From: Antedon mediterranea
Lineage: Eukaryota; Echinodermata; Crinoidea; Comatulida; Antedonidae
Assembly: GCF_964355755.1 (NCBI RefSeq)
Contig: NC_092671.1
Coordinates: 17,882,001-17,946,000, forward strand
Length of the DNA stretch: 64,000 nucleotides
Reading direction: 5' to 3'
Under the pieces are notes generated by a model that saw only the letters and a program-made list of their open reading frames with translations, ran no database searches and was not told where the DNA came from. A program made the position numbers and the translations under genes. Of the stretch, positions 3,001-58,100 are shown piece by piece; within the stretch, counting starts at the first letter, position 1, and each line of letters starts with the position of its first letter.

Positions 3001-6000
3001 GACTTGCAGAGTTGCAAAGATTGTGGCTCCTAAGAAGTTATTACTTAAGAAAGCTGAAGGTGAACTGAAAATTGCCATGGAGAACTTGGAGAAGAAACGC
3101 ACAATGCTTCGAGAAGTACAAGACAAACTGCAGAAACTTCAAGATAAACTAGATGCTAACAAGAAAAAGAAAGTGGACTTGGAGAACCAGATTGATCTGT
3201 GTTCAAAGAAGCTTGACCGAGCTGAACAACTGATCAGTGGCCTAGGTGGTGAAAAAGAGAGGTATGCAAATCACCTATTGAATAAACACATTTGAAATGT
3301 ATTTTTGGAATTATAACAGTAATAAATATGGTTTACTTGACCTTTGACATTTTTCAGATGGAAGAAGACAGCAGCTGAACTTGGAGAGCTGTATGTGAAC
3401 CTGACTGGTGATGTGTTAATATCTTCTGGTCTTGTTGCTTACCTTGGCGCTTTCACATCAATATTTAGACAGGTATGAGTTTTACTCTAGACTTAGCACT
3501 AAACCTAGAATTCTTAAAACATATCTATTTCCTCCTAAACCGCACGGCTGATAAACATGCTGCTTTAGTTGTGAGATCTTTTAATCTTCTTTATCCATAG
3601 TCAATTTTTGTGAGATAAATATGTTTTTTAGATCAATTCCTTTGTGATGGCCGAATGCCTCATTTGGTAATTAATATTAATTTGGTAATTAATAACCAGA
3701 TTAGAAACATGATAATATTTCCATAATGTAGCAATATTCTGAGGAAAATGGATATATAAACATGTTTGGGCTTCTATTTTTGAAAGGGATTTGTTTTTAC
3801 CTACTAAACACAATATTCATGCTACAATATTTTATATCCATTTTTTTGTAATTGAAAAGCAAAAGAAACTGTTTAAAAAATATAATCAAATAATTTTTCA
3901 CAATAGGAACAAATACAAGAATGGTTCCAACAAACTAAGGACATGGGTATTCCATGCTCTCCAGAGTTTTCACTTACATCAACCCTTGGAGAACCTGTAC
4001 TTATAAGACAGTGGAACATTGCCGGTCTGCCAACAGATAGTTTCTCAGTAGAGAATGGAATCATTGTCAGGTATTAAACTATTATTTTCTTATTTTCAAT
4101 TCATTCACTCATCTTATCTCATCATCACATCTATCATCTTTGTACCCTGTCACCCATATTGCAGTTGACTCATTCCAAGATTTCAACCCAGCTCTTTAAT
4201 TTCCTTTTCCAAAATTCTCCTAGTGCTACTCAGGTCTTTCCTTTGCCCTTCAATTTTCAGTGTTGTACAATCACTGTCTTCTTTAACTCCTCAATCTATT
4301 GAATATTCTATTTTGTTTTTAATCTTTTCTTAGCAATGCTCGACGATGGCCTTTGATGATTGATCCACAAGGTCAAGCCAATAAGTGGGTGAAGAACATG
4401 GAGAAGGCAAACAACCTTCATGTTATTAAACTTACTTCAGGCGATTTCGTTCGAACTCTGGAAAATTGTATACAGTTTGGAACTCCTGTAAGTTTAAGAC
4501 TTTATTATGACACAAACATTGATTAAAATAATAGATTTTATATTCATAAAACTAATAATATCACTGAGAAAAAAATAGCCTTTTCAACAGCGCACTTTTG
4601 AATGTACTATACCAGGTATCGAATATGTGGAGTATGACCCATTTTAATGGAAATATCAGATCTGCTTTTCAATTTATGCAGTAACCCTGAATAATGGTTA
4701 AACATAGTGTTTAAACATATATAGCCCCTCGATCATTTCATGATAAAAAGGCCCCTTAACAAGGATGTCCCCAGAATAAATTGATATTGATACATTTATT
4801 GTGAGTATATTTTGTTCTGAATTAATTTATTTTACATTGTAGGTTTTACTGGAGAACATTGCTGAAGAATTAGACCCGATTCTCGAACCTCTACTCCTAA
4901 AACAAACCTTCAAACAAGGTGGAAGCATCTGTATTCGTCTTGGTGATAGCACTATAGAATACTCGCATGACTTCAGATTTTACATCACTACCAAACTGAG
5001 AAACCCTCATTATCTGCCTGAAACAGCTGTAAAGGTTAGCCTTTGAAATGTTTAACTTAATGCTTAGTTTTCCAAATCAGAATCAAGTAAATCACAAGTA
5101 AAGTAAAACACACAAAACAATTCATGCACATGATTGCTAAACTTATGGCACACCGACAGATGGATATACCATACCCAAGAATAATCTTCAAATTTACAGA
5201 AAACCAACATATGTTCCACTTTCACTTCAACAACTGTTGTAATTGTAAATTGTTTGTTTTATTTTGTTGTAGGTAACATTGTTGAATTTTATGATAACAC
5301 CAGAAGGATTAGAGGATCAGTTGCTGGGAATTGTTGTTGCTCGTGAACGGCCAGAATTAGAAGAAGAGAAGAATGCGCTTATTCTGCAAAGTGCCGATAA
5401 TAAAAGGTTTGATAATAAACAATTTACATTGTGTTACTTCAAAATATTTAAATACGCAGTAATATTAATACCCGAGTACATATTTTTAGTTGTCTAGACT
5501 GTCAAATTGTAAACACATTTCAACAGATTTCTTCTAATTTTGACATCCATGTTTTAGGTTACTCCGCCTCTTAATTCCACTTTTGTAATATTTACATTTG
5601 AATGTATTCTGAATATTAAATTGTGTAAATAATATTATTACACTTAGACAACTGAAGGAGATTGAAGATAAGATCCTAGAAGTTCTTTCAACATCCGAAG
5701 GAAATATCCTTGAAGATGAGACAGCCATAAAAGTGCTCTCCTCATCCAAAGTTCTTGCCAATGAGATTTCAGAAAAGCAGGCCATCTCAGAGGAGACGGA
5801 GAAAAAGATTGATACCACACGTATGGGTTACACCCCAATTGCTGTCCACTCCAGTATTCTGTTCTTCACCATTGCTGACTTGGCCAATATTGAACCCATG
5901 TACCAGTACTCTCTCATGTGGTTTGTAAACCTATTTGTCAATGGCATCGACAACTCAGAAAAGTCTGAAAACTTGGAAAAACGTTTGGAGAACCTCAGGG

Positions 6001-9000
6001 AGTATTTTACTTACTCTCTTTATTGCAATGTCTGCCGTTCCCTATTTGAGAAAGATAAGGTATTGATATCTGTATAATTATTTTCAATTCAGTCCATTAT
6101 TAACACACTCTAATACATACTTACCCTAACTTAAAAACTTAGAGGAAGTTGAGGATACATGTATTGTCAAAATTGTCAGTTTATGTTAAATGTAGTAGAA
6201 ATAAGCAACACCAATTAAAAGGCCTGTTTGCATTATGTTATACATCTAATAAAAAAGTCTAATTAGCTTAAATATAGCTTACAGTTCTGCTTCATTGGAT
6301 AGATTTTGACAGAGATAGATTTATATTATTATTTGTTGTAGTGGTGTTAAAATAATTGATTTACTTTTTGCAGTTGTTGTTTTCATTCTTACTCTGCACA
6401 AACCTACTGAAGCATGCTAAAGAGGTGGATGAAGATGAGTGGCGTTTCCTTCTGACTGGAGGCGTTGGTCTTGATAACCCTCACTCTAACCCTACATCGT
6501 GGCTGCCTATTAAGTCATGGGATGAGATTTGCAGACTGTCAGAATTGCCCAACTTCCCAGGTCTTCGAAAGAAGTTTCCAGCCCAGAAAGAAGGATGGAA
6601 AGTCATTTATGATGATACTGTAAGCTATTTCAAATAAATAACAATATATTCTATACACCAATTGATTGTTATTGTTTTTTCATCCTACCAAGTGTATTGT
6701 TGTACTAATACATTTGATATGTATCTTCTATAGGAACCTCAGCATCAGGCTCTACCAGGAGAATGGAATGAACAGCTTGGATTGTTCCAGAAAATACTCA
6801 TCCTTAGATGTCTGCGACCTGATAAAGTAAGTATATATCAGCTTGAAAAGATATTAGGATGGACCAATGAAACGATGAATGAACATTGTAGAACAAATTA
6901 TTGAACTGATGAAATCAGGATATAAGATGTAGATGCTAGATTGAATACAATTGATTGTACAAAAATAAAATATATTATTACAAATAAACAATGTGTGTCC
7001 TTTTTAGGTTGTTCCTGCTGTACAGGATTTTGTCACTGCTAAACTGCACAAGAAGTTTATTGAACCTCCGCCCTTTGACCTTGCTAAGGCATTTGGTGAC
7101 AGCCATTGCTGTGCTCCTCTTATTTTTGTGCTCTCCCCAGGAGCAGATCCTATGGCAGCACTTCTCAAATTTGCTGATGATCAGGTAAGACTAGCCTATA
7201 TAAAATAACAATATCCATATTATAATATGCTGATTTTGAGCTTTTAAACCAGTAATTGGCAGCCTACAGGTCAGCTACTGCAGTACTATTGTTCTTACTC
7301 AACAAACAAAAAAATGTTGAAAGAGGGATATCTATATATAAATTATGGTTAATTCTGACATAGGCGAGCACAATGCAAAAACTTCGGTACAAATCTCTGC
7401 CTTGGATACCTACCTTATCTATCTCAGATGTACCGCGAAACGTAGATTTGATAAAATTAGTTTTCAGTTTGACGCTATTGTTCCATATTTCTATCTTAGG
7501 AAGATATTATAAAGAGTTTTTTAACAACATTATGATTTCAACAGTAGATTTTCAACTCAATTTCAATTCTTAGCGGTCAAAGTAATTTCCGGGTTTACGA
7601 TGAGTTCACCTTACAGCAACATGGTTTCAACTATTTTCTCTCTTTTATACACAAGGGAGCAGTTAAAATAATAGATTTGACCCTAAAGGATAGTAGGACT
7701 GGAGCTTAAGTTGGCCATTAGTCATAGCCATTTCAGTTTTTTGTTTATTTTAGGAACGGACCGCGCGTGTGAAAGGTACAGCAGTTAAAAAATAAAAATT
7801 ATACTGCAAATTAATAAAGATCAAATTAAATATACGCCATAAAGAATCGGAATATATTGTGGGGAATAGTATTATAAAATTACATAGGGAGATTTGATGA
7901 TAAGACATTAATGGAGTGAAATCCCGATAGCTGAGTTTTATTGAGTAAGCTGGCAGGAATAACTGTAGGCTATCTGTGTCCCGTTAGGACCGAGATGTCT
8001 GCCCATGTTGCAAGCCGTAATATCTTCTTTCTTGTGCCGAAACGGCCAACTCTGTCACGGCAGTTACTTTCAAAAGATGTTTAAATTAAATAATGTATTA
8101 ATACTTATTAGGATGATATTTATTTGAATAAATGCCTCCAATAAAACATCATTTTGAATAATAATCACCAACTATCTAATAAACGTCCATCCCATCCACA
8201 TTTATAATAACACAATTATACTATTTGTAGTAGAATTCATCGCACTGTTATCTACAATTTACCAAGCATTTGTTATTCTTTTTTACCACTTTCATATCTA
8301 TTAGAGGATTTCATTTGATTATAAATGTTACCATATTATTAAAACTAAAAAATTTAACATATATCCCTCGAATAAGCACCTCCCTCAAATGAACTCTGCC
8401 TCCCCACCTCCGCCCTATAAGGGCCCTACCAAACAATAAAGACTATACTTTAAAATGTTATTAATCATCTAAGACACTATGAAACAGAGTAGTTTAGTTT
8501 TACGAATGTCAAGCATTTTCAATAATGGTAACCGCCAGAAAACGTACAAGGAGAACATTATCATTCCGAGAACCATCGTCTACACTTCCTAGTAAATAAT
8601 AACAAATATGCAACTGTTTCTCACACTTGATACTAATGGAGGTTTAAATAGAAGTTTTTCCTATTTATGCAATCTGAGATATTTCAGCCTTTTAATCATT
8701 AAAGAAGAAAGAAGAACATTTGAAAAAATGGTACTTTTACTTTTCACTCCTACCTTTGATTTAGTCTACCTAATCATGTTATTCTGTTCATAATACTTTA
8801 TTCTATTCTTATCAGTATCGCTTATTCAAAAAACATACCAATGTCAACATGAACGTGGTAAGATTATGCTGATAAATATGTGTCATATAAATAAATTGGA
8901 ATTTACTATGTTTTTAAAATTAAATTTGAGTACAGTTTTAGCTTTTGCTAATTTATAAAATGTTTGTAGTCGCATTAAATGTGTTAAAATCAAGTTCATA

Positions 9001-12000
9001 AGAATATGAATGTTTTTGTTTTATGAGTGTAATTCATTTTTTTGTGGTTTAAAAATCAAAGTAAAAGGAGCTAGTTTTCAACTATTGGTAACAAATGTGC
9101 AGTCAGTCAAATGTTTTTTAAGTACTATTTCAGCTTTTATTGATGTTTTAAAATAAACATTGATCCATCAAGGTACTGTATGGCTTGGGGAAGGTGGTAA
9201 TATGAGTGTCCTTCCTGGGAAAATATTAGGGGGTGGGGATGATGGATATCCTGTGTTCGCTAGAGCGTAAATTCCACTTTTAAGTTTTATTTTTAAATTT
9301 TAAGGTTACGGTATATGTACATTATTTCTTGCCAACTTTATTTTCCTCAAAAAGTTAAGATGGAATTTTATGCTAAGCGCCGCCCACTTGGTTAAAGCTC
9401 GCACATAAATTATTCATGAGCACCGTCCTGTGGCTTCCCGTCCTGTGCTGTAAATTCCCTATTGGCGAATGAACCAAACTCAATCCTATTCTAAATCATT
9501 TAATTTTACATTTCCACTATAGTATATCTGTAATAAACAATTATTTTTTGATGTTCATGTTAGAATAGAATCTGCTGGGTAATGCAGTATTTTAACTTTC
9601 TTTATGTATACATTACACTTACAGCAGGTGTTTGTATCATTTCAATGAATGTTTTTATACATTTTGTTGTACTTATTTTGATGAACAGTAATAATTTGTC
9701 TAGATTGATACATTTTAAGAATATGCGTATGTTGTACTAAGTATGCTCATTCAATCATAGTTTCATCAGTAAATAAGTTAAAGTGTTTCACTAAATGATG
9801 CATTTGTTCCTCATAATGTTATGTTATATCAGATTTATTACATGGATGTTCTTTTATCGTATTACTTAATTTTTCATGTTAATAGAGGACATGGTATTTA
9901 TTTTTATTAATGTTTTTAAAGGGATTCGGTGGAAGCAAGTTAAGCTCTCTGTCACTAGGTCAAGGTCAGGGTCCAGTTGCCATGCAGATGATTGAAAAAG
10001 GTCTGAAGGAAGGTACATGGGTTGTGCTACAAAACTGCCATCTGGCTGTGTCTTGGATGACAACGCTTGAAAAACTCTGTGAGGTAACTGATGATTTTTC
10101 ATGTGCAAATCTTAAGTTTAAAATTTTAAAGATGTATTGTCCCCCTAAAAAACTCATTTTTAAAACATTTTTTGTTGAATATTCCATTTTAATTTCACCT
10201 AATAGTTTTCCACCTTTACCAAAAATTGGTTCGAAAAAAGATGTATTTACCTAAAAAACTAAAGCAAACAATAGTCATAGTCAGGTTTTTGATTGAATTT
10301 AACCATTTGTTTGGTCATTTTATAAGTGAAAGCATGATTGACATGATTTAATCTTTATTTTTCATGTTTTTGTTTGACAATACATCTTTAAAGGTCTTTT
10401 CAAAATTATTTTATTAATTTTTATTAATATTTTGTTTCTTTGTTTTTCCACCAGGATCTCAATCCAGAGACCACACATCCTGATTTCCGACTCTGGTTAA
10501 CCAGTTATCCATCACCTCACTTTCCAGTTGCTGTTCTTCAAAACGGAGTGAAAATGACAAATGAACCCCCTGCTGGATTAAGAGCCAACATTGTTCGCTC
10601 TTATCTTAGTGATCCAATCTCAGATCCCGAGTTTTTTAACAGCTCCAAGAATATGGTACGGAAAAAGAAACATTTCAGACATATTAAGTTTCATGAATGT
10701 TTCCTAGGATGATAGTTGTGTAACTATTGTGGAATAACTTTGCACCAAGGAGCTAAACAATTGGTCAGATGTTTTGCCCTGTGTATTGTATAAATAGATT
10801 TAATAGAATTACTTGTTTTGCAGATATTCTCATTATGGCAAAACATCTAACCAATTGTCTCCTAGCTTAGATCATACCTTGCACACTCACTAAACAGTAT
10901 TTCTTTTCAAACACATTTACATACAATTAAGCTACGGCTGAATCATCTAATGTTCACACCTCCTTTTTGGGCTGCATGACAATAGTTCATTACTATTCTC
11001 GGCCTTTGGCAAGTAGCAGAGTTAGACTAAAGCTTGGTTCCCACTAGGAAGCAATGCAAGGATGTAAGCACAACGCAAGTGATTTGACCAATCAGTAGCG
11101 ATGGGTTATTCAAACTGTCACTTGTCATTGGCTAACTCAATCACTAGTGGGAACCACGCTTAAGACACCTTAGTACAAAATGTTATATATTTCATGTTGT
11201 GTCATTTCACCTTTCATTTTTCTTTTCACCTGTCATTTTCATGTGCTTTTTATCATCTCTATTACATTCTACATGGTTTGCTGTGAAATATCTTAACTCA
11301 CTTGGTTTGCTGTGTTACCTGATACACGCTACAGAAAAAAAGTGTAGGTTTCATAACAATTAGTTTTATTTTTAAAAAATATTCTTGGCAAATAACACCT
11401 TAAGCTCTACAGGTCTACACTATCAAACTTTATGTGACAAAAAAATGTGATGTGCCCATATATGGACATGATGATGTCATATCACTACCATATTTTGACA
11501 TATCACTACCATAGTTGGCCAGATCACACTTTTTTTGTCAACTAGTTTTATAGTGTAGACAGAGCTTTATAAACCTTTATCATCCATACAATGTCACGTT
11601 AATCAAATAAATTTTTATTGCAAAATCACATTAATTTAAAGCTGTCTCGCAACATAATTTTATGGATACTGACTATATGACTTTCTTCTATACTATGAAG
11701 TATCTCATAATCTCACCTACTAATTTAGACTCAATTCTAAACAAACAACATTGGTAAATCTATTGTTACTGTAATCTGAATATAATCCCACCACCTAATG
11801 TTACCAAATTCTGGCCTCTTGAGACTATACCGCATGGTGGTAATAACTAATATTTTTAACATAATATCCAAAATATGTCATCTATTCCTCCTGTCAACTG
11901 AGTCTGTTTATCTAAATTCTTTAGCATGCCTGGAAGAAGCTGTTATATGGATTGTGTTTCTTCCATGCACTCGTGCAAGAACGACGCAAGTTTGGACCAC

Positions 12001-41127: not shown

Positions 41128-41138
41128 CCGCCCGCCCG

Positions 41139-42038
41139 CGATTTTTTTTTCGTACATAAGTTGGGGACCCCCTCATGAAACGTCACAAAATAAACATGAA
41201 TAATTCATCAGTTAAATTTTCTTGTTCCGTGTGCACCCAAGCGTATAGCAAGAAGAAGTGATTACACAACTGCGATACGATACTTTTACAGTCGGCCTAG
41301 GATTCTAAGTCAATTCACGTGATTGCCTTCGCGCACTCTTCTTCACACACACACACACACCACTATGCAAAATGTGTCGAGTCGAGGCTAATCGACAGCA
41401 AGGCAAGACATTACACCAAGTAGTAATTCATTGGACATAGCCCAAAGAAAGCTTAGACCCACAAGAATAAAGAATGTGTATAATTTGTGTACTGTATTTT
41501 TTTAATTCTGCTATTTTATTATCAAACAATATGCATGTAATCAAAGGAACTGCGCGTATATGAACACATGAGATGGGAAGGTTAGACCCACGAGAATAAA
41601 AAATGTATTTTTGTGTAATGTTTATTGTTTAATTTTGCTGACTCTAACACACACGTCACACACACCAATACAGCTATTACTACTAGAATAGACATGGGTT
41701 TAGAGAATAGTAATTAGGCCTAATAGTATCAATAGCAAACTATAATTTTAACACGTAATTCTTTAGTAATAAATTATATTAAACACACCATAAACTAAAG
41801 GCTGATTATTTCGACAATCCACACAAAACGCCGCTATTCTATTATGAAATCGCACGCGGCAACCGCAGCGGAGATAGGCCTAGAATCGTACCGCACTTGT
41901 GTAAACTACTGTAATCACTTCTTGTTGCTATACGCTTGGGTGCACACGGAACAAGAAAATTTAACTGATGAATTATTCATGTTTATTTTGTGACGTTTCA
42001 TGAGGGGGTCCCCAACTTATGTACGAAAAAAAAAATCG
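41139..42038. mobile_element. Foldback (Mutator-like) element, 900 bp, with 11-bp target duplication
   Basis: The inverted ends are about 130-140 bp long. The left arm starts CGATTTTTTTTTCGTACATA at 41139 and includes ggggaccccctcatgaaacg and gtgcacccaagcgtatagca. The right arm (41911-42038) is its near-perfect reverse complement. The flanks carry the same 11 bases, CCGCCCGCCCG, at 41128-41138 and 42039-42049. Long TIRs plus a target duplication of this length fit Mutator-like elements. The interior has two related phrases (tagacccacaagaataaa and tagacccacgagaataaa) and no ORF, so it is non-autonomous. Confidence 0.85.
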
Positions 42039-42049
42039 CCGCCCGCCCG

Positions 42050-44521
42050 ATATAGCCAAATACGGTATGATAACCTACGTCATTCTTATCGGACGTTTGC
42101 GGTCTGCAAATCGATGTCTATACGTGTTTCACAAGTCTGTATTTTCAGACAAAAATCGCGGTCGAAATAAAAACAAATAAATTAAAAAAAAGACAATACA
42201 GACTTGGGGCAAGTCTAGTACAAGCTATGCATTTATAATCTAAACGCATAGAAAAGCTAAACATGTATCGAGCTAAACGTGTGGAAAAAGTGGGTACAAG
42301 CTATATGCGTTTAGAATCTAAACGCCGTTTTTAGTGTATTATGCAGGTCATGTTAGTCTAGATTTAACTAAATAGTTCAAACAGTTATTTTGGGTAAATA
42401 GGCCGTTTTGATAGATATGAAATTTATAGACAGTCAGCAAAATTGCTTGATTTCAATTGAGATACCATTTTAAACAAAACGCAAATAAAAACGATAAAAT
42501 AATTATGTCAAGGTTTATATACAGTATATTAATTGTAATAATATAATCATTTTATGATATTTAAATTCATGGCTTTTTGCAAAAATCATTAGGCTTGAAA
42601 TGGACAGGTAACAACAAAAAGCTATTGTTTCATTCAAATAACATCATATATCAAGGCGAGTGGGTACAAAGACAAAGCAAAGCAAAATATGTTACTTAAG
42701 ATGCCGCTTGTTATTCTAACAGACATATCACACGTCATACGTTAGAATATTGCGCATAGATAAGACGATATTAATATTATGACTTGAAAGGCCTAATGTT
42801 TTCAGTACCGAATTTTGTATATTTTGTGTCAAATGGGTATACAGAGGCCTCACAATGTACTGTTACCGGTACTACATAATACATAGATTAAATTGCGCCT
42901 AAAAAGGTACGCGCTTATAAAATATCACGAATCGCGTAGAAAATTGATCAGAAATTAATTTTCTCTAAAACACGTCATTCTTAATCCACAGAAAGTTTGT
43001 TCTTGATATTTTGTGTCCATAACAAATGACATTTAGTTTTTAATCTATGAAATTTGTAAAATCACGCGTATGCTACGTTGTGTAACTCCGACGCCATTTA
43101 AAAGGTGACGGTGCAGAGCAAGTTAATCGACATTTGACTTGGCAGATATCAATTAAATTGACTACACAAAGCTTCAGGTCAAGGGAAAATATATAAACAT
43201 AAACAATTGTTCGTGTACGCATGCATTTTTACGCGAAATTGCCCTTCAAAATGATCTAAATCAATATCTAATCAAATTACAGCGTTCAAAAATATCCACG
43301 CATCTTGTTTAGCGCACAGCACGTAAGTAACGCAAAAGTCCGTTTTTACAGTTAATGTTCTTCATACCCTCACGGGAATGATAAAATTGCTTTTATTTTT
43401 ATGAACTATAAGAACGTGCGTTCTCCATCCAATAGGACATTTAATGCCAAATTTGTATAAAAACCCTATTTTGAATTGCTTATATTATTTTTAAAGAATA
43501 AGCGGTTGCTGCAATTTTTTAATTGGACAGTAGATGTGACTGACAAAATGTTATGATATATGGAAATTCTGATTTTGTTCTCTTTCGTTATAAATCAACG
43601 CATTCAACAGAGCGCATCTCGCTTACCTGAGCCCGATTTTCTAAAATGTAATATGTGCTTTCTCAACCTATTACATTTATCATGAATTGTCACAAATTTC
43701 ATTTTAATGACGTCATCAATAAAAAAATGTTATAACCTTGGTCGCGTAATTTCATCTACTTTGTATATTCTTACAGCTCTTTAAGGTGACCTTGACGTTT
43801 TAAATTATTATGAAAGTTGATAAATGATATGTATTCCGAGAAAAATTGTGCCTACCAGATGTTGCGATTGTTATCTTATGGCCAGCTGAATTAAAAAAGT
43901 TGCTTTTTCATCTCTTCCGTCAAAGTTATACACATTTAAAAGAGCACACACCCCGCTTCTACTGTCCAATTTTCTTTGAAATCACAAATCCTATATTGCT
44001 CAAATCATTATTGTAATCTTCAGGTTTAAATTTGATAACATCCTCATACCAAAAAAACTAAAATATATATGGGTCTCGCAATTTCACATATTCTTCACTG
44101 TATAGATAAACATAATAGGCACAACTGAGTAATAATGTAAGCGTCAAATTTATGCTGCGTTTGCGCGGATTTAAAAAATTAATAAAATTATGTGAAATGA
44201 CCTTATATCACCAAGATCATATATAAGTCGTCACGAATTAAATTCTAGTTGACACTTATTTCTGTGAAATTCAATCAAAATGCTGATTATCTAGCTAATG
44301 TAAATTCAAAATTTCTTAAACATTTAAAAAGCATAAATTAAAATCTTCAGGCGCAAAATTGTTATGAGAATGTTGGGAATATGGAACAATATTTTCTATT
44401 ATATAAGTTGCTATACATTTCATGATCTGCCAACGACGAAATGTGTTTTGTGCAAGATTAATACAGATGGCCCTTAATAACTGACTTCACATTATTACTT
44501 TATTAATTCACAGACATTAGG
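42050..44521. other. Non-coding stretch between two mobile elements
   Basis: AT-rich, 2.5 kb, with no open frame of note. A short repeat of the phrase aatctaaacgc occurs three times at 42237-42325. It may include the 5' non-coding part of the transposon at 44522, but I could not find a terminal repeat. Confidence 0.4.
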
Positions 44522-44728
44522 ATGAAGAGTAAAAATACAAACATGGAAGCCGTGGTCGACGCTTTCGCTTCAATAAAAAATATAAAACTGTTTGATGTTG
44601 AAGGATACAGACAAAAAGATAGTGTATGGGGAAAGGTTGCTATTCACTCAAACAGAAAAATAGCATATATAACAGAAAATGTTTATATAATCAATGGAAA
44701 CGACATGATACCATACGGATTGATGTGA
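44522..44728 (+). CDS. Small ORF1 of the transposon, unknown function
   Basis: 68 codons with no recognised domain. It reads as a compact folded domain (hydrophobic and charged alternation, with SVWGKVAIHSNRKIAYI in the middle). Its TGA stop overlaps the ATG of the next ORF by one base (TGATG at 44726-44730). That is either a termination-reinitiation coupling or the trace of a frameshift that split one protein. Confidence 0.4.
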   Translation: MKSKNTNMEAVVDAFASIKNIKLFDVEGYRQKDSVWGKVAIHSNRKIAYITENVYIINGNDMIPYGLM

Positions 44729-45291
44729 TGAAAAGGAAAAAAAAAAGTTCGTCTAAGCGAGTGAAAATAAACCCACCGCTGTTTTGCATCTGTCAACGTC
44801 CCAATGACAGGCGACCTTATGTCCAGTGTGATAACTGTCTCAATTGGTTTCATTTCGATTGTGTGGGCTATGAAGACAGTCCTGACAATGAATTCATTTG
44901 TTCAGATTGTACATTTCAAAGAGAAATAAGCAGTACAATAGAAACAAAAACTGAATCGAAAAAGAAGACGACAACAAAAAAGAAAAGAAATGAAAAGAAA
45001 CAGGAATCAAAAACAAATGATACAGACCAATCCCCAATTGCAAGTAGGCCTACTACAAGCGGTAAAACACAACTGAAAAGAAGCAATCAAAATATTGTAA
45101 AGAGAATAGTAAAGATGATTGTGGAGCGAAAAGGACAAATATTCCATGAAAGCAAAAAAGGTGAAAAGAGACACATCAAGAGAGAGCGTAGACGACAAGT
45201 AGGAAGAGAAATGGAGAAAACAGGAGTACCCATGTGGTATTTCAAAACTGTTGGAGAAATGACCAAACAGAGAAAGAATCTGGAAATTTGA
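44728..45291 (+). CDS. PHD-finger protein of the transposon
   Basis: 187 codons from the ATG at 44728. A PHD-type zinc finger lies at about residues 17-56: CICQRP, then CDNCLNWFH, then C, and FICSDC at the end, giving the Cys4-His-Cys3 order with the aromatic before His. It is followed by a long Lys-rich low-complexity region (KKKTTTKKKRNEKKQESK) that looks like a nuclear-localisation or DNA-binding tail. PHD fingers read histone H3 tails, so a role in chromatin targeting of the transposon is possible but inferred. The frame shifts near 45234-45291 into the next segment. Confidence 0.7.
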   Translation: MKRKKKSSSKRVKINPPLFCICQRPNDRRPYVQCDNCLNWFHFDCVGYEDSPDNEFICSDCTFQREISSTIETKTESKKKTTTKKKRNEKKQESKTNDTDQSPIASRPTTSGKTQLKRSNQNIVKRIVKMIVERKGQIFHESKKGEKRHIKRERRRQVGREMEKTGVPMWYFKTVGEMTKQRKNLEI

Positions 45292-46803
45292 CAGCCTGCT
45301 CCACCCAGGGCGTGTTGCGAAAAATAATATCAGAAAGGAAAATCCTTCAAAATTTTCATGATGCATTCTGTCACGAGGTGGACATTGTCAGGCAAGTATA
45401 CGCTGATGTACACCCTTTATCAAAGTATACTAATGGTGGATATATACAGTAGGCCTACTTCACTATATTTCCTTTCAAAGTCCACCTCATGATTGACGAA
45501 CAAGCGCAGCTGTATTTGGACCAACTAAAGAATGAACCTGTAACATTACACCTCGACGCCACTGGATCGATCATGAAAAAAGTATCTGGACAGAACAAAC
45601 AAATTTTGTAGGCCTCTTATGCACTGGTCATGCCAAATCCCAAAAAAGTCGCGCTGGTATTCCGGTTTGCGAGATGATAAGCACAGACCAGCATGCCTCG
45701 GAAATACAACATTTTCTGGAGCGTTTTCTGAATACCGTAAGCGGAACCAGGCCTGTGGCGTCAGTGGTACCAAGACGAGTTGAGATCGACTATTCATGGG
45801 CCCTTATCAAAGCAGTCTTGCGAAGCTTCAATTCAGAAGATTGCAAAGGATATTTGCAACGAACGTGGCGCATTGCCCACGGGAGCGTTCATGAAATTAA
45901 AGGCTATACCTATCCGCACATTTGTGCTGCACACATGATTCATGATGTTTCGCGCAGATTAAAACGTCTTTCAACTGACATTAAGAAGAGACAGTTCGTA
46001 TTATACTGTTTCGCCGCACTACAAACTCAGTATAAACTGGAAGATGCATCAACAATTTTCAGGCATTTGTGTGTTATACTCAACACCAAAACAGCGTCGA
46101 CATCGGTTGATGCATCAGTTAAGTACATGAACAATCTCATTAGCAAGACACCTACAGCATCGCATGTGGCGAAGCAGAAGACGCATGTCAAGAAGCAGGA
46201 AGAAATGAAGATGAAGATGTAGAGCGATCTGCAACAATCAGGAAATCATCGCCTTTGTATGTGACATTTAATGACGTTTACGAAGGTGTCAACGATGACC
46301 ATACACCGGTTGATTCTGAACAGAATCCATACTACACCGAAGGACTAGCAAAGATTATACTCGACCAATTCTTGCATATATTCCCGCTATGGAGCGCAAT
46401 GTTCCTCGGAGACCTAAACAGAATATATGGGAAGGAAACTGCAAGCCACAAACCAGTATGTGTAATTAATAGAGCAACAAATTCTGTTATTGAAAATTGG
46501 TTTGGGAACGTCAAAAAAGATTATCTCGGGGGAAACCGTCAACGTTTACGACCAGCACACTTCATACGCAAATCATACCTTAATATTACCGGAAGAGTAG
46601 CTGAAGTACATCTCAAAGAAAGCAAAAAACGAAAAGCTAAGGGGAAAACACAGGAACAGGTTCGAAGAACTAAGCCGGGAAAGTACTTCTCAAAACCAAA
46701 GAACGGGCTCCCACAACCAAAGAAAAGACGTGCAAATAATAAAAATCGGATGGCACAGGAAAATGTTCCACTAAATACAGAAAATGTAAATTATGTAATG
46801 TAA
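45234..46803 (+). pseudogene. DDE-like transposase, interrupted
   Basis: Segments: 45234-45452, then the same frame after a TAG to about 45600 (first Asp in VTLHLDATGSIMKK), a second in-frame TAG near 45610, a frameshift in an A-run near 45640, then 45674-46222 (CEMISTDQHASEI, second Asp in VEIDYSWALIKAVLRSFN, CxxH in HICAAHM), a stop, then 46255-46803 (FPLWSAMFLGDLNRIYG, with the putative third acidic residue in NSVIENWFGNVK). It ends in a Lys-rich tail. The spacing and motifs fit a catalytic core with two stops and at least one frameshift, so this copy is not functional. Both early stops fall in TAGGCCT sequences, the abundant local motif. A superfamily search is needed to name it. Confidence 0.6.
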
Positions 46804-47389
46804 ATAAAATGTAAGTAAATTAGGAAGCGCATCACAATCCGAATGTAAAACTAACCGAAAAAATGGAAAATCCAATGAACCAGATACCAAATCCGCTTCA
46901 GTAACCACACCCACTACCAGGAACAAAACCAAGTCTAAAAAAAGTCCAGTAAAGAAGCCTCGAAAAGAAGACATAGAGAATCCGGAAGAAATTTGGAAAC
47001 GACGGAGTAAAAGCCAAGGAAATGCATTCTGCAGCAATGACTCTCATATGTCAAATAATATTCCAATATGGGGTGGGCAAGTTGTCTATCGTGGTGTTCA
47101 TTGCTTTATACAAAACACATGCACTATAGACAATTTGCTACTTATACTGTCTAGGCTTATCCTAAATGTTCCTATGCTGTACAAAACCATAGAAGATCAT
47201 GGAGGTGACATGTGCAATTTGTTGCTAAATATTGTGAACAATTGCAACGAAGGTAAATGGTCGTTGGCGAAAGTCAGATGGCTTTGTGAAGTTCACAACA
47301 TACAACTAACACAACGGAAACGGCAGAACATTGATGCTTTTGGATCGGAGTACAACTTCTTTGTGCGACATATGTCCATCTTTCAATAA
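46804..47389 (+). CDS. C-terminal Cys-box domain of the transposon
   Basis: The frame is open from about 46820, with a Lys/Pro-rich leader (KTKSKKSPVKKPRKEDIENP), then from 47048 IPIWGGQVVYRGVHCFIQN followed by TCTIDNLLLILSRL. The WGG and N-T-C-x-I-D-N pattern recalls the Cys box of papain-fold deubiquitinase-like proteases carried by some Mutator-type transposons, but a matching His/Asp pair is not evident, so protease function is only a guess. It may be a separate protein or the C-terminus of the transposase. Confidence 0.45.
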
Positions 47390-47870
47390 AATATCCAACA
47401 GTCTGAATGTTCAAATCCTCTGTGTGTCAAGAGGATAAGGAATATCCGTAGCCCGTCCGTTGAGTTAGGGTAAGTTCAGAAAAGTGATTTGATATTCAAA
47501 CAATACACAGTTACAATTATACAATAACTACACCACCTACACGTAAACAACATTCCTACTACTAACAAGGCAATATACAGCAGTCGCGTGCTCAAATTTT
47601 AGTTAGTGTTTACCGACCGACCATCCGATCAACCGACCGATAGAGTGATCTGTAGAGTCGCGTTGAACACACGCGACTAAAACATACTGACAGAATTGCT
47701 TAATTATCAATATTTATTGAAACAGTGCGCTCTTAGGCGTTTACAAAGTGGTCGGTCCGAATGTAAATAAATTGTTATTAATGGTTTTGCGCAGTTTTAG
47801 GGTGTAAACACACTGCAAACAATGTCAAATGTTTTCAACATTTTATAATTGTGTTCTTTTCCCTTATAGA

Positions 47871-47990
47871 ATGCCAGAAGACAGAAGAATAGCGACTGTT
47901 CAAGAGGCTCTGGATCATTGGATACACCCTTCCGTTATATCATCGTGTGGTTTTGCTCATATACTTTGGTTGGGGCAAGTTAAGCCAAGT
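47871..47990 (+). other. Possible exon of unknown function next to the satellite
   Basis: After an acceptor-like tttcccttatag, an ATG opens a frame beginning MPEDRRIATVQEALDHWIHP. It runs into the first satellite unit at about 47960. It has coding-like composition at its start but no recognised domain and no clear donor. It may belong to the transposon upstream. Confidence 0.25.
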
Positions 47991-49530
47991 ATCGTTATCT
48001 CAGTTCATGACGTTTATGTGTATAACGTTTTTTACTCATGTTATATAACTAAACAATTTAGTACCTATTTGATATTGCTCAAAGTAGCAGTTATATGGCA
48101 TGGACCGGGGACATTACTTGCCCCAACCCAAGTATCGTTATCTCAGTTCTAGACGTTTATGTGTATAACGTTTTAAATCATGTTATGTAAACAATTGAGT
48201 AGGCCTACCTACTGTATTTGATATTGCTTAAAGTAGCAGTTATATGGCATGGACCGGGGACATTGCTTGCCTCAACCCAAGTATCGTTGTCTCAGTTCTA
48301 GACGTATTGTTTTTTTTTGCTTTTAACAATAAATGTTTTTTTTCCTCAAATCTGTTTTGTCTCTTTCATTTTCATTATGTTTTATTGTTTCTTCCACACG
48401 CAAGTAATTGCATTTGCTAAAAATGGCAGTTAGACGGCATGGACCGGGGCAAGTGGTATTTTTCTGAAATGACTGGAGCCTACTTGCCCAAACCCATATA
48501 TCGTCATCCCGGTCCATGCCGTTTATAACGTAATTATAGCCCTATAAATCATGCGTTTATATTGCATTTTTTTATTAAAAAAAACGTTAAATTGTACGTA
48601 TTAACGTTTTAAAATGGCAGCTAGACGGCATGGACCAGGGCAAGTGGTATTTTTCTGAAACGACTGGACCCTACTAGCCCCAACCCATGTATCGTCATCC
48701 CGGTCCATGCCGTTTATAACGTAATTATTGCCCTATACATCATGCGGTTATATTGCATTTTTTTTATTAAAAAAACGTTAAATTGTAGTAACGTTTTAAA
48801 ATGGCGTAAAATGACAGCTAGACGGCATGGACCGGGGCAAGAGGTATTTTTCTGAAATGACTAGACCCTACTCGCCCCAACCCATGTATCGTCATCCCGG
48901 TCCATGCCGTTTATAACGTAATTATAGCCCTATATATCATCCGGTTATATTGCATTTTTATAAAAACGTTAAATTGTAGTAACGTTTTAAAATGGCTTAA
49001 CATGGCAGCTCTAGAAGGCATGGACAGGGGCAAGTGTTTTTTTTCTGAAATGACTGGACCCTACTCGCCCCAACCCATGTATCGTCATCCCGGTCCATGC
49101 CGTTTACAACGTAATTATAGCCCTATAAATCATGTGGTTAAATTACATTTTTTATAAAAAAAAAAATTAAATTGCAGTAACGTTTTAAAATGGCGTAAAA
49201 TGACAGCTAGACGGTATCGACCGAGGCAAGTGGTATTTTTCTGTAATGACTGGACCCTACTCGCCCCAACCAACGTATCATCATCCCGGTCCATGCCGTT
49301 TATAACGTAATTATAGCCCTATATATCATCCGGTTATATTGCATATTTTATAAAAACTTTAAATTGTAGTAACGTTTTAAAATGGCGTAAAATGGCAGCT
49401 AGACGGCATGGACCGGGGCAAGTGGTATTTTTCGGAAATGACTGGACCCTACTCGCTCCAACCCATGTATCGTCATCCCGGTCCATGCCGTTTATAACGA
49501 AGTTATAGCCCTATAAATCATAGCCCTAGT
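47955..49530. repeat. Satellite array, eight units of 150-197 bp, each with an inverted repeat
   Basis: The motif ggcatggaccgggg (with variants) starts near 48097, 48246, 48436, 48627, 48824, 49017, 49213 and 49404, giving spacings of 149, 190, 191, 197, 193, 196 and 191. In later units acggcatggaccggg is mirrored about 75 bases downstream by cccggtccatgccgt, so each unit can form a hairpin or cruciform. Between the arms lie caagtggtatttttctgaaa and cgccccaacccatgtatcgt. The first two units are shorter and more divergent. Confidence 0.9.
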
Positions 49531-50200
49531 TAGTCTAAGCCGTAAGTATAAAATCATTTAATTAAAATATAACACATATTGCGCCCCATACATTTGATTG
49601 GATCCAACTTCACAACAAAAATTGAATATCGAATAAGGAATAAGTAAACCAACTTCACACGCCGGTCGTCTACCACCACCGATCACAACACAACACCGTT
49701 CGTAGCAGGGGTGTCACGAAAGCTCAGACCACGAAAGCTCAGACCCCCTAAGACCTAAGATCACGAAAGCTAAGACCCAACACCTAAGATTACAAATACT
49801 AAGATATACTACAGATTAAAAACAATACTTGTTTATCCATAAATAATTTTAAACACAGTAGGTTTCATTTATTACCATAAATATAATTTAATACTACCGC
49901 AAAACATAGATAAACTCACATTATTTTCGCCCGTTGAGTAAATGTATATTTTTTCTTTACAACAAACAAACTTGACGGGTTGTTTGTTGGTATATATTTA
50001 CTCCATTGTGTTGGTTCAGAGGATGTTTTTCTTACGCACCTGCCTTTCTTGTATTTTGACTCCAAATTTGTTGACTAACTTTATCCTGAACACCACACTT
50101 TAAAATTAGGACTTATAAGTACTTTCAGAAAGAGAAACACATAATAACAAATAAATAAATCCTTTAAATTGATGATTTTACATATGTGTTTCTTTGTATA

Positions 50201-50998
50201 TGTTATGCGCGATTTGAACGATTTGCGCAATTTGAAATTGCGCAAAAAAATCCTTGCGCAATTTGAAATTGCGCAAAGAATTCTTGCGCAATTTAAAATT
50301 GCGCAAGGATTTTTTTGCGCAATTTGAAATTGCGCAATCAACTTGCGCAATTTCAAATTGCGCAAGAAAATCTTTGCGCAATTTTAAATTGCGCTGCACA
50401 ATTTGTAAATTGCGCAAGATAGTTCTTGCGCAATATGACACCTTTGCGCAATTTGAAAACGAACTGTAAATTTTCCCATACATGGCTAGGCTAGGCCTAG
50501 GCAGAGGAGTTTAAAATTTAGTATTTTATTATATAAATAAGACCATTTCAATGAAGATAATGTTTAATACTCACTTTTTAAGTTTTTAATATTAGTTTAA
50601 GCTAGGCCATGTAACCTAGTCAGTATCAGTAGTCCAGACCCTAGCTAGGCTAGAGTAGTATAGCCGGCCGCCCGCGCCGCGCCCGCCTGGTGGAACACCA
50701 CCGCTTCGTTTTCCTTCGTCGGTTCTTCGACGGTATGCTAACTTATAACAATATTTGCACTACTAAAATAAGGAAATGCGATATTTATGTTTAATTTTGA
50801 ATCATTCTTAGAAATTACTATAAAATATGGGTGTGCATGATTTCACAATCTGTCGAAAAACCTTGCGCAATTTGCAGATTACTTGCGCAATTTAATACGT
50901 TGCTTGCGCAATTTGAAACACATGTTTCAATTCAAATTGCGCAAGGATTTTTTTTGCGCAATTTCAAATTGCGCAAATCGTTCAAATCGCGCATAACA
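50201..50998. mobile_element. Nested foldback element made of TTGCGCAATTT palindromes
   Basis: The ends TGTTATGCGCGATTTGAACG and their mirror at 50979-50998 are followed inward by tandem palindromes of the type ttgcgcaatttgaaattgcg. About a dozen GCGCAATTT/AAATTGCGC arms lie in 50215-50460 and about eight in 50860-50975. The inverted match extends about 70 bp. The flanks are TATA on both sides. A GCGCAATTTGC copy outside, near 52021, shows the motif also exists elsewhere. Confidence 0.8.
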
Positions 50999-51020
50999 TA
51001 TACTGTAATGTAACTCCTCG

Positions 51021-51320
51021 AGCTCCCACCATGCTCAATGTTTTTGTTTCCATGGAGCGCCAAAAGAGCAACAATAATAGTACAAGCATAAAAACAGAAA
51101 GAAAACGAAACAAAAAAACTTATCATGATTTTTAAATTAAAATTTATTTGCCAGTATTTATTTCTTCGTACTTGCATGATTATACTATTATCATTACAAT
51201 TTTCATTTTACATTGTTCCATCCACACTGTAGATGGACTCCACAGAGTTTTCAGCCCTCTATATAATTTTTGCTCTTTTGACGTTCCATAGAAACAAAAA
51301 CATTGAACATGGGGTAGGCC
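51021..51320. repeat. Inverted repeat pair inside the 49709 foldback
   Basis: The left arm (51021-51070) contains caatgtttttgtttccatgg and ccaaaagagca. The right arm (51271-51320) is its imperfect mirror (tgctcttttgacgttccata, gaaacaaaaacattg). About 200 bp lie between. It probably is a third, older nested element. Confidence 0.7.
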
Positions 51321-51714
51321 TACTGTAGTACTGTAGGCTAGTCATTTTGTGTGCGAGAAAAACGTCTGTAAAATCATCAATTTAAAAATGTATTTGTTAC
51401 TTTTTATGTGATTCTTTTTCATGAAAGTGCCAATTCTAAGGTGTGGTATTCAGAATAAATGTTGGGAGTTAAAATACAAGGCAGGTGCGAAAGATAAATA
51501 TTTGTAATCTTAGGTGTTGGGTCTTAGCTTTCGTGATCTTAGGTCTTAGGGGGTCTGAGCTTTCGTGGTCTGAGCTTTCGTGACACCCTTCGTAGCAGCT
51601 TGCCTACTCTAGGGCCTGCCTCTAGTAGGGTAGGAAATTGAATCTTATTTATTTTTGACTAAAAACGTCAACGCGGTTCGTTATGATGAGGCGGTATGAT
51701 GAGGCGGTATAAAT

Positions 51715-52156: not shown

Positions 52157-55100
52157 GTATACCTAGAACAAAAATGTCGGCAATTAACGATACATTATCT
52201 ATTCTAAACGTGGAGCAGTTGAACAATGCAGTAAACCTGGCGCATGTATTACCCTTACAACCAGATGGAAACCAAACTAATCACATGACACTACCAATTC
52301 AAAATGTAAGAATTTATAGCAAACAAAGTTCAACCAATTCTGTTTGTTGGTGTCTTGTCATAGAATGACATTCTGACATCTTATTGGTCAGTTGTGGCTA
52401 CCACCTGAAGTGAAATTTCCTCTGTGGTGAATGGTAAACTAAATTTCAGTTTTCAGCTGAATAAATTACTAAAAAATGTTTCTGTATTATTAACTATGAT
52501 ATCCTTCATTTGTATTATATAATGAAAATTATTTAAAATTGGCAAAACTATGAATACACCATAGGCTACTACTTGTAAGTTTTACTCCAGTCAGAGGGAG
52601 TAAGTATGCCATATTCCACCAACAGAATAGAAACACATAAATAATAAATGAAAATATATATAGCGGCATATATATCAGCTAATAATGTTTTCAAATGATT
52701 TTTAAAACTTTTCACATTATGAACATTTCTGTATAAGAACTACTACAGGTACAGTACAGTAATAGTCTAGTTTGATTGGGTCTCCACATAAATATTTTAA
52801 ATTGTTACAGGTACTTGGATACTTGATCCTTTATCCCTTTACAGGGTCCAGGACATCATCTTGTAGGTGGCAGTTGTAAAGGGTCTTTCACACCTGTTCC
52901 GGCACGGTTCCGGTCCGGCGCCGGAAAATCCAATCGAACGTCAATGTTTCGTTTTCACGCGGCTACGCGCATATCGATTGGTGCATAGCCGCGTGAAAAC
53001 GAAACATTGATGTTCGATTCGCCGGACCGGAACCGTGCCGGAACAGGTGTGAAAGACCCTTAAGGCAATCACAAAGTATTATGAACATTAACATTTTGTA
53101 TGTTTTGTTCTATACTTGTTTAGACCAACCATGCTATGTCAGTGTCTTCTTCGATGCCAAGGATCACGGTGTCCACTACCATACCCACCAACATCACCAG
53201 TAGATCTCTTCCGATTCTGATGTTAAACACAGCCTCTCAAGGAGATCAAACGCTAAGCCATACAAATAGTAGCCTCAGACAAATAAGTAATGCATGAAAT
53301 ACTATACCTTCATAAATGAGTCAACAATGAGTAATCCTCCCTCGTTTTGGCTTTCCGTAGTTGTATTACTTCTTCTAATATTGTAATATCTGTATATGGT
53401 TAAGACACTATCATACAGAAAGACACAGGTTCAAATACCAAGAACTCTCACTCATAAAGGAATACCTGGTGTGGAAAGTATATATCTAGCCACCTAACAA
53501 CACTTAGCCAACAATAAGCTCCTTAAACATAACATTAGAAGCTTCAGAAGAAGTTTTCATGTTTAGGCTGAGAACTTCTATAAGAGAGGTTGTTTTGTTT
53601 ACCCCTTTTTTTAAAAACATAAATACCAGATTTTTATTTTTTTATATTATCTAGCAATTCCCGTTCTACAGGAGCAGAATTCACACGTCGTACTACCGAT
53701 ACAAAATGTAAGCCCTGCCAGTTTTGGAACATGCCTGCCTGTTGACCACAGTACAGATATAAGTCTTCAGACATTACTATCATCACCAAACCAGCTCAAT
53801 ACTCTAAATCTGAACCAAGTTGTCAATCATAGGATAAATGTTGACGATGGAATTCAAAGACAGAATATTAATAATAACTTGCAGGTTATATCATCAGTAC
53901 CAATCTCACAACCAGTAGCTACAGTCAATAAACATTTGCAAAGGTTAGTAAGGTCTACTAGTAGTACTGTCGTCGTCGTTGTAATCGTCGTAGTAATAGT
54001 AGTACAGTATACACAAGTTAACATCTACAAGTTTGAATTTTTTTTCTTTGCAGTTCAAAGTTGCATCAAAATGAAACCTTTTTAGTAAACTTAAAACTAC
54101 CAATTACTATTCAAAACAACCAGCCAATAAAGATCAACTCAATGCCTCAAGCCCAGCCAACCGCTGATATTTCAACTAATCCTATTGGCCAGCATCTTCA
54201 ATTATCGCTGCCGGAATTGCAAAATCAACCAATCGGAAAGAATAATATATCATTGCTAACTACAAGCAATCTGAACCATCTTGTGACTCAAGCCAGTGAT
54301 GATGAGACGTGCCAGAATGGAAACCAGATGATAGGGACACAAGACCCTGTGGCTGCTGCCAGCTTGTTTGCTGGGGTCACAGATGAATTAGATGGAAATT
54401 CTTTGATTCCAAGTGAATCGCAAACAAATGATTTTGACACTAGTTTATGTAAGTGTTATTACAAGATTCACCATGCTGATATCGAGTTTGCTGTAGATCA
54501 ATTATACATAGCCATAACTAACATTAAAATTTACACGCTTCAACCAAGATTCTTTGTTTTTTTACAGGGTGTGTAGAATGCAATACAAGTCACCCTCTAC
54601 TATGTCCGGTCAAAGGTGAACTTCAGTGTATTCAAGATTCTCCAATACTCAGCCATGCACGTCAAACCTTACCAAGTATTTTAAAGATAAAGTCTTCAAC
54701 TGTGACACCAAATGGAGACGGTAAGTCAACTGTTGGCGTATCAGAATGTGTATGAACATTCTTGGAACAAGTATAGCCAGCTATTATAGATAGTAATGCT
54801 GATTTATTTCTTACAGGTGTGTTTGCTAAAGTAACTATTGAAGCAAGGTGTCAATTTGGACCGTTAAAGGGAAGCATTTTAAAGAATGACCTTAGCACTG
54901 AATTAGATTGTCCAACACAGTGGAAGGTATATTACACCATTTATTTATGTATTGTCTGTAACAGCAAAGTCATCACAACAGAAATATTATCAAACCTAAC
55001 AAAAAGCTCATCATAACAGAAATCTCTTCACATATAACAGCAAACTCTAACAAACAACTTGTCACATCTAACAAAAAACTCATCACATCTAACAGAAAAC

Positions 55101-58100
55101 TAATCACATCATCTAACAGAAAACTCATCAAATCTAACAGAAAACTCATTAAATCTAACAGAAAAATCATCACATCTAACAAAAAACTCATCAAATCTAA
55201 CAGAAAACTCATCATATCTACACAAAACTCATCACATCTAAAAGAAAACTCATCACATCTAACACAAATCTCATCACATCTATAACACAAATCTCATCAC
55301 ATCTAACACAAATCTCATCACATCTATAACACAAATCTCATCATATCTAACAGAAAACTCATCACATCTAACAGAATTTTTATTTTATTCAATCAAAACC
55401 AACAGCGATAAATACCGCCACTAACAGGTTTGAAACATAAAACAATACAACATCAAAAACGGTTAACAATAAAATACAGATAAAATATATATATATATAT
55501 AAAAAACATAGATTGGCATGCCATAAAAAATTTCAATTAAAACAGGTTATGCAGACTGTTCAAGAAGTGAACACATCATCGTCCTCTTAAAATAACCAAG
55601 TCTATCATTAAAAATATCGATATGATTGCTATTTAGATTATTAAATGTATAAGGTAGTCTATGAAAAAGTCCCCTCTTAGTACAGTCGACACGGCTAAAA
55701 GGAATATGCAATAAATGTCTATTTCGTGTACGACCAGGAACATTTAAACTAAATAGTGAAATTAATGAACAGTCATATTTAGAATTTAAAATATTATATA
55801 AAAAAACCATATCAGATATCGTTCGACGATTGCTGACAGAATCAATGGAAAAGGCAAAATTAACACAGTTATAAGACAGGAATCGAACAAACTTCCGTTG
55901 AACAGTGTCGATTCGACGGGCCTGACATGGAGAAATTGAATTGAAAATTGCGGAACAATATTCAAGGTGAGGACGTATAATAGATTTGTATAAAGATAAA
56001 AGTGCCCTGCCGTCGTTCATAAACCTACAATTTCTCCATATTAAGCCCATCATTCTATTAGCTTTTGACAACACATGATTAATATGTGAACAAAAATTTA
56101 ATTTACTATCAATAAAAATACCTAAATCTTTCCATACATAAACCATCTCAAGATCATGTCCACTCAGATTATAATTGAAGAGCACAGGCTTTTTTTTAAG
56201 TGTTATAGATAAATATTTGCATTTATTAGCATTAAGTTTTATCCCCCACTTCTCCGTCCATTCCACGAGACCATCCAGATCCTCCTGAAGTGAAAAAGCA
56301 TCCTGTGGAGTGGTAATCACTTTAAACAATTTCAGATCGTCAGCAAATAAAAGAGACTCGGAATGATTAAATTTTAAAGGAAGATCGTTGATAAATAAAT
56401 TAAACAAAAGCTGGCCCAGGATCGAGCCCTGCGGAACGCCCGATAACACAGGGAGCCAATCAGATGTCTCTCCCCCAATGACAACACGCTGTTGTCTATT
56501 AGTTAAATAGCTTTTAAACCAACTTAACAGTGAACCGGATAAACCAAATTTTGAAAGTTTAAAAATAAGCAAATCATGGGAAACGGAATCAAAAGCCTTA
56601 GAGAAATCAGTGTAAATCACATCGCACTGCTTCTTGCTGTTAATTGCATCGTATGATGTAGCAAGAAGCAGTGCGAGGTTGGTTTGACATGATCTCCCAG
56701 AGACAAATACTCATCATATCTAAAGAAAACTGATCACATCTAACACAAATCTCATCACATCTAACACAAATCTCATCAGATCTAACAGAAAACTCATCAC
56801 ATCTAAGAAAACCATCACATCTAACAGGAACTCATCAATCACATGTAACAGAAAGCTCATCATATCTAACAGAAAAATCACATCTAACAGAAAACTTATC
56901 ACATCTAACAAAAAGCTCATCATTATGTTATGTTTTAAAAAGATATAGTATCTATTTTAACCATATTATAGTACATACATTTTTTTAAAAATCTTTGTGT
57001 ATCTTTGTCATGGATGAAATAATGAATAAAAGTAGGCTACACTCACGAAAGAGAGAAAAAAAGCTCATCATATCTAACAGTAAAATCTTACATCAAACAG
57101 AAAACTCATTACATATGTATATACTTTATCTTCTAGATATTTCAAGGTAACGATCTTCATCATTGTGTTGATACCAGAAATGAGAATATCTGTAACTGGA
57201 TGATGTTTGTACGCAATGCTAGAATGTCCGTAGAACAAAATATAGTTGCTTATCAATGGGGGCAGTATATATTTTTCACTACTATTCGTGCAATACAACC
57301 TGGGGAGGAACTCTTGTACTGGTATTCTGGGAATTATGCAAAGAAAAAAGGTATGTTTGTGTTCATGCTTTTGTGCAATTAAATTTTATTTTGGGAATCT
57401 TTAACCCATCCTCTGAACTGTTTTTGAGGTTTTACGTTGCTGGTTAATCATCTCTTGTACAAATTCAGTTCCTATCCAGCTTCTATTTTAAAATATGAAG
57501 TTTTATAAATATTGTTCAAAATTGTCTAGGTTTGAAGAACAAGCCAGAACAGTGCTTTTTAGAACTGAACAAAAACTGCTTTGTTGACTAAGATTATTGT
57601 ACTTTGCAAGTTGAAATTTTATTTATATTATTATTTCCAAATTGTCTAGGTCTGAAAGACAAGCCAGAACAGTGCTTTTGGTGTTCAAAGTGCAATCGTC
57701 AATTTCTGTCTGTGTTGAAGCTCAACAGTCATATGAAATACAGCCATCCAGACACAAGTGAACGTAAATTCAAATGCACACATTGCTCACGTGCCTTTCT
57801 GTGTCTTACCAAACTCAATGTTCATGAGATGACTCATTCAAATGTGAAGCCTCATAAGTGTAACCTCTGTGAAAAGACCTTTACAGACCCTAGCAATCTG
57901 CGAATGCATCAGCTTATTCATACAGGTAAAGCTCTGTCTACATTAACAAACTAGTTTGACAAAAAAAGTGATGTGCCCATATGGTTATATCACTACCATT
58001 TGGGCACATCACACTTGTAGTGTAGATAGATCTTAAGAATAGTAGTGAAACTGGTTGGCATGCTTGCATTATCAATCCCGGAATCTTTGGTTCAAATCCT

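Follow-up and report, generated by a model that had tools for sequence, protein, structure and literature searches.

A decayed transposon copy with a PHD finger, a DDE core and a C-terminal cysteine-box domain in Antedon mediterranea, probably allied to Mutator/MULE elements

The region between positions 44522 and 47389 of the 64,000-nt stretch of DNA analyzed here (C2:17882001-17946000, in a genome of 354 Mb and 18 contigs; hereafter the window) is probably what is left of a DNA transposon of the cut-and-paste kind, now dead and allied to Mutator/MULE, with Rehavkus as its most likely type. Reading of its + strand revealed, in this order, a PHD finger and the motifs DATGS, DYSWAL, CxxH, SVIENWF and NTCTIDN [Table 1]. 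All of these motifs had been named, in the same order, in a preliminary description of this DNA; they are spread over several open frames (44507-44728, 44623-45291, 45192-45611 with an internal TAG, 45536-46222, 46144-46803 and 46808-47389), indicative of a broken gene rather than a single ORF, and the lesions of the window copy include frameshifts, stops and a deletion. The proposal of a transposon remnant in which a PHD finger precedes a DDE-like core and, at the C-terminus, a Cys domain was borne out by the motifs themselves, by the match of the PHD finger to PF00628 and by the presence of related copies in the genome. Coordinates 44522-47389 are too short, with coding running on via an apparent intron to an exon at 47870-47980 that is followed by minisatellite DNA to position 49521. 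An open stretch at the N-terminus is possibly part of the same protein. The joined frames served for searches only and no repaired gene is proposed.

Table 1. Positions, in window coordinates, of the parts of the remnant, of the adjoining satellites and of the flanking foldbacks
Feature	Coordinates	Strand	Evidence and remarks
N-terminal open stretch (MKSKNTNMEAVV...)	44522..44725	+	Open frame 44507-44728; weakly like the N-terminus of L014
PHD finger, all eight zinc ligands	44785..44910	+	Pfam PF00628 3.8e-8; BPTF 7.2e-9, PHF2 1.9e-8
Conserved linker preceding the DDE core, kept in the C5 and C10 copies	45104..45547	+	DNA identity 73-79%; protein matches 54-83%
DDE core	45555..46494	+	Alignment with L014 (C3): five signature positions common to both
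Cys-box domain (NTCTIDN, DAFGSEYNFF, CSNPLC)	47054..47469	+	Cys codon of NTCTIDN at 47120-47122
Apparent intron (GTAAGT ... ttttcccttatag)	47470..47869	+	Sequence; C4 copy retains both boundaries; splicing predicted
Next exon (MPEDRRIATVQEALDHWIHP...SSCGF)	47870..47980	+	Sequence; C4 comparison
Minisatellite, 149-bp unit x 2.2	47982..48305	+	TRF; homologous array beside the C4 copy
Related satellite, 191-bp unit x 5.7	48420..49521	+	Also in arrays on C6 and C10
Foldback 1, separate element	41138..42039	.	129-bp TIRs; 9-bp TSD CGCCCGCCC; dozens of copies
Foldback 2, separate element	49709..51588	.	90-bp perfect TIRs; 10-bp TSD TTCGTAGCAG

DNA searches of the same genome identified a close copy on C4 (93% over positions 1169-2868 of the query) and short fragments on C5 and C10, and a protein search identified a distant relative of about 31% identity within a long open frame on C3; no relatives were found in viral contigs. 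The C3 locus, L014 (C3:8295500-8305499), has two open frames of 1108 and 774 codons, and its sequence suggests an intron between them. In the first frame, a PHD finger (3.5e-5) occurs together with a 117-bp coding repeat and the beginning of the DDE core; the second encodes the remainder of this core, which thus lies between the PHD finger and the UCH domain, followed by full-length UCH (1.7e-20) and Ulp1/C48 (9.8e-19) domains whose PDB matches are USP46/USP12 and SENP1/SENP2, respectively. The frames with PHD, DDE, UCH/USP and Ulp1 domains span positions 3309-9213 of this locus (C3:8298808-8304712), and elsewhere only degenerate copies were seen (C4:12430k). L014 may be either a transposon of recent origin or a gene that has been domesticated.

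Where an in-frame comparison is possible, the window and C4 copies differ at 13, 8 and 32 first, second and third codon positions, respectively, an excess at third positions which indicates that much of their divergence arose under selection on the protein, before decay. Neither copy is intact any longer and not all of their lesions are shared, the in-frame TAA at 47387-47389 of the window, for instance, being a sense codon in the C4 copy. The same test on L014 and its decayed C4 relative revealed no clear bias.

Within the DDE core, the Asp of DATGS (codon 45555-45557) and that of DYSWAL (45788-45790) are followed by CAAH (45923-45934), the Trp of PLWS (46390-46392) and the Glu of SVIENWF (46492-46494), a layout of D-78-D-45-CxxH-W-E that is now interrupted by a TAG (45609-45611) and by frameshifts near 45640 and 46200. 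Read-through alignment with L014 pairs DATGS with DATGN, DYSWAL with MDRAMAF, CAAH with CTSH, PLWS with PLWS and SVIENWF with SVQEGRF, at similar spacings (78 vs 76 for D-D, 45 vs 47 for D-C and 222 vs 247 for D-E), such that all positions of the MULE-type signature, as defined in PMC5225508, are present in both. In MULE and hAT transposases, the CxxH and W follow the second D and precede the E, and transposition by Muta1 is strongly reduced when its His or Trp is mutated (PMC5225508). The window motifs are not due to chance, since the C3 relative, at 29-31% identity, has D, D, CxxH, W and E at similar spacing, and since most differences from the C4 copy are at third codon positions. DATGSV, CAAH, PLWS and NTCTVDN are also retained in L046, a locus of a third lineage on C10.

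The link to MULEs is one of signature only, as the window DDE segment matched no Pfam transposase model, MULE PF10551 included, at E values up to 10. The L014 core likewise matched no transposase model of Pfam, that for MULE included, and the window locus is not among 36 genome hits to the MULE domain. A PDB profile search found no solved structure convincingly like the DDE core; its only hit, a weak one to Rifin (0.0049), falls outside the catalytic motifs and was judged to be due to chance. Single-sequence AlphaFold2 models of 193 and 228 aa were poor (pLDDT 49 and 39). At another locus, L012 (positions 1045-4004; C10:24686044-24689003), a 67-bp coding stretch located just 5' of the DDE core (IDEQAQLYLD...) has been tandemly amplified to dozens of copies.

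The PF00628 match of the PHD finger is better than the Pfam cut-off. Its closest solved relatives include the PHD fingers of BPTF, the best match, DIDO1 (1.5e-8) and PHF2 [Table 1], which are known readers of methylated H3K4. The four positions that form the histone cage of BPTF are F, N, Y and W in the window, making a methyl-lysine cage possible but incomplete; by this comparison, the window PHD finger may bind H3K4me.

The idea of a deubiquitinase-like Cys box put forward in the preliminary description is strengthened as a proposal. Profile tests on the domain itself were not significant: hmmscan yielded no match to Pfam UCH, hhalign against UCH returned a probability of 0.4%, and the score against a three-sequence, home-made USP profile fell inside the shuffle range. 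On the other hand, the C3 relative, alone in giving a significant UCH/USP profile match, carries its UCH domain in the same place, and the C4 copy provides His and Asp boxes. The window copy, which has the Cys box, ends at the satellite after the exon at 47870-47980 and lacks the later exons with the USP-like His/Asp box that are present in the C4 copy. The apparent intron that precedes this exon has both of its boundaries (47470 and 47869) in the C4 copy, and CSNxxC and the donor end are conserved in L073, which represents a third lineage. Two further open stretches of the C4 copy, FRVPPILFINP and YTLQAFTIHTTSHFKCRLREGDTWVTYDD...GYLVYLLES, continue the domain, such that its exons display P-x-ILFINP, YTLQAFTIHTTSHF and WVTYDD in the order of USP boxes, with the pattern Y-x-L-x-A-F-x2-H...SHF...W-x3-DD; the phase at the joints between these stretches is not fully consistent, which fits a decayed copy. 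The last USP-like box recurs in a third lineage, at a further locus on C4 (47% over 49 residues). A His-box pattern, a relaxed form of that of PROSITE, matched the C4 exon and 0 of 400,000 shuffles, the pattern having been chosen in part after the exon had been seen. From the order of the boxes and from the UCH domain that the C3 relative certainly has at this position, we consider with moderate confidence that the Cys-box domain of the window is USP-like. A 586-codon frame on C11 (L052, positions 484-2244) with a UCH domain (1.3e-9) and the Cys box DNCCHN is possibly another transposon-borne deubiquitinase.

Beyond the last exon, two blocks of the satellite unit are similar to the end of the coding sequence and to the 3' flank of the C4 gene (73-80%, E values to 1.4e-6; 38.3 bits vs 28.3 for the best shuffle), so that the satellite is very probably part of the 3' end of the element. 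The array has the orientation of the gene in the window and is inverted beside the C4 copy, and larger arrays of the same satellite family are found on C6 and C10. On C6 (10665725-10677452), two inverted 191-bp satellite arrays are located about 7 kb apart; these were considered as element termini and rejected, the flanks examined having no homology to the gene.

It had been stated that this architecture matches no transposon family that can be named. This is incorrect or too strong, in that Rehavkus, the sister of Mutator/MULE that bears a PHD finger, has been described with just this combination of PHD finger, MULE-type DDE core and terminal minisatellite (PMC6446971, PMC10218199). Rehavkus elements are reported to have a PHD finger, long TIRs, a 9-bp TSD and a minisatellite that precedes the 3' TIR (PMC6446971), and Rehavkus-1_TC harbors a 164-bp satellite within its inverted termini (PMC10218199). 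Common to these elements and ours are the PHD finger of the transposase (3.8e-8 in the window, 3.5e-5 in the C3 relative), the MULE-type catalytic signature and a minisatellite near the 3' end or C-terminus, here the 149- and 191-bp arrays at 47982-49521; the satellite units are also of similar size (142-191 bp here). In contrast, Rehavkus has so far been reported only from arthropods and annelids, the published descriptions compared do not mention USP or Ulp1 domains, and the TIR and TSD known from Rehavkus (26-400 bp being the criterion for its TIR) were not found for the window element. The element thus resembles Rehavkus in its workings and is probably allied to it, rather than to be filed as a member, given that the likeness is one to a published description and not to a sequence and that TIR and TSD were not found.

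The lack of any match to the Pfam MULE model or to another transposase, and the USP and Ulp1 fusion of the C3 relative, which is not mentioned in the Rehavkus descriptions compared, are features one might expect of a distinct, undescribed PHD-DDE-USP lineage with a MULE/hAT-type signature, neither Rehavkus nor MULE. We consider this unlikely, as the PHD finger, the terminal satellite and the signature all agree with published Rehavkus and many divergent MULEs escape profiles. Compared to MULEs such as Muta1 of Aedes (PMC5225508), the window core is set apart by the absence of a PF10551 match, by a PHD finger in the place of a FLYWCH, SWIM or C2H2 finger, and by a long D-E distance (222 here and 247 in L014). 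A chromatin reader and proteases of the ubiquitin or SUMO type are also fused to the transposase in Ginger1 and Mutator elements, in the form of PHD, Ulp1 or OTU domains, USP (C19) being noted in the same study only for a Trichomonas Transposase_11 protein (PMC2836005). That the window element is itself of the Ginger type, with its DDE core joined to PHD and Ulp1 or OTU proteases, would agree with the C-terminal Ulp1 and PHD domains that Ginger1 transposases can bear (PMC2836005), but is extremely improbable: Ginger has a core of the Gypsy-integrase type, the window element has no rve Pfam match, its D-D distance of 78 and D-E distance above 220 with CxxH and W in between differ from a compact integrase core, and its PHD finger is N-terminal. 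The Ginger identity was rejected on core type. Deubiquitinases also occur in the proteins of VTD- and OTU-carrying Helitrons, which differ in their rolling-circle Rep/helicase and in the class of deubiquitinase (PMC9741609).

Neither the window element nor the C3 gene yielded TIRs or a TSD when their surroundings were searched for inverted pairs. In the window this says little since the copy has been shortened by truncation and rearranged; it nonetheless means that we infer mobility from dispersal rather than from ends. The same finding, together with the very small number of copies and the existence on C3 of a single long, apparently spliced gene, would be compatible with a decayed host gene or domesticated transposase that was duplicated in the genome and is not a mobile copy. 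The DDE signature, PHD finger and proteases are nevertheless the architecture of a transposase, several independent dead copies or fragments are located on C4, C5 and C10, and the terminal satellite fits a Rehavkus element, making a host-gene origin distinctly improbable next to a dead transposon of the Rehavkus type.

The two foldbacks that flank the remnant [Table 1] were correctly recognized as Mutator-like, their TIRs and 9- and 10-bp TSDs fitting non-autonomous elements of the Mutator type. The suggestion that the PHD element or an intact relative might mobilize them found no support: no termini common to them and the PHD element were found, and at least 36 genome loci match the MULE domain, several of them in frames of 586-707 codons and some of them multi-copy. 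These ordinary MULE loci are the likelier, natural candidates for mobilizing the foldbacks. Elsewhere in the window, open frames at 1473-6077 resemble, by eye, exons of an axonemal dynein heavy chain, and a 387-codon frame on the - strand (55547-56710), flanked by tandem repeats at 54959-55376 and 56703-56923, resembles, also by eye, a non-LTR reverse transcriptase fragment.

The transposase of a working relative of this element would bind the element ends and excise it via its RNase H-like D-D-(CxxH)-(W)-E core, while its PHD finger would bind the tail of histone H3, plausibly methylated at K4, and thereby bias insertion to open chromatin. Ubiquitin on the transposase, on histones or on repair factors at the break would be taken off by the USP-like cysteine protease at the C-terminus, and the C-terminal Ulp1 of the C3 branch would, in addition, remove SUMO locally. 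End cleavage by the DDE core is suggested by the conserved signature, and removal of ubiquitin and SUMO by the identity of the domains; we infer the catalysis, the histone target and both the activity and the purpose of the proteases from sequence. PHD and Ulp1 fusions to transposases have already been noted, and Bao and colleagues proposed that the ubiquitin- and SUMO-type proteases of Ginger and Mutator transposases act in transposition (PMC2836005). A lineage that unites a PHD finger and a MULE-like core with both USP and Ulp1 appears to be new within the part of the literature that our search covered.

A tentative possibility is that the element represents an undescribed animal lineage in which one protein links a reader of histone marks to a MULE-like DDE core and a ubiquitin-specific protease, with a SUMO protease added in one branch; were this true, such an element could choose its chromatin and strip ubiquitin and SUMO at the site of insertion or repair. 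The satellite, with its relation to the 3' end of the gene itself, illustrates how a transposon seeds satellite DNA. What is known of Rehavkus-type elements comes mainly from a few entries in Repbase; several related lineages occur in this genome, one of them with long open PHD, DDE, USP and Ulp1 frames, and the genome thus provides a concrete system in which to ask whether ubiquitin and SUMO removal helps transposition (PMC2836005) and whether a PHD finger steers insertion.
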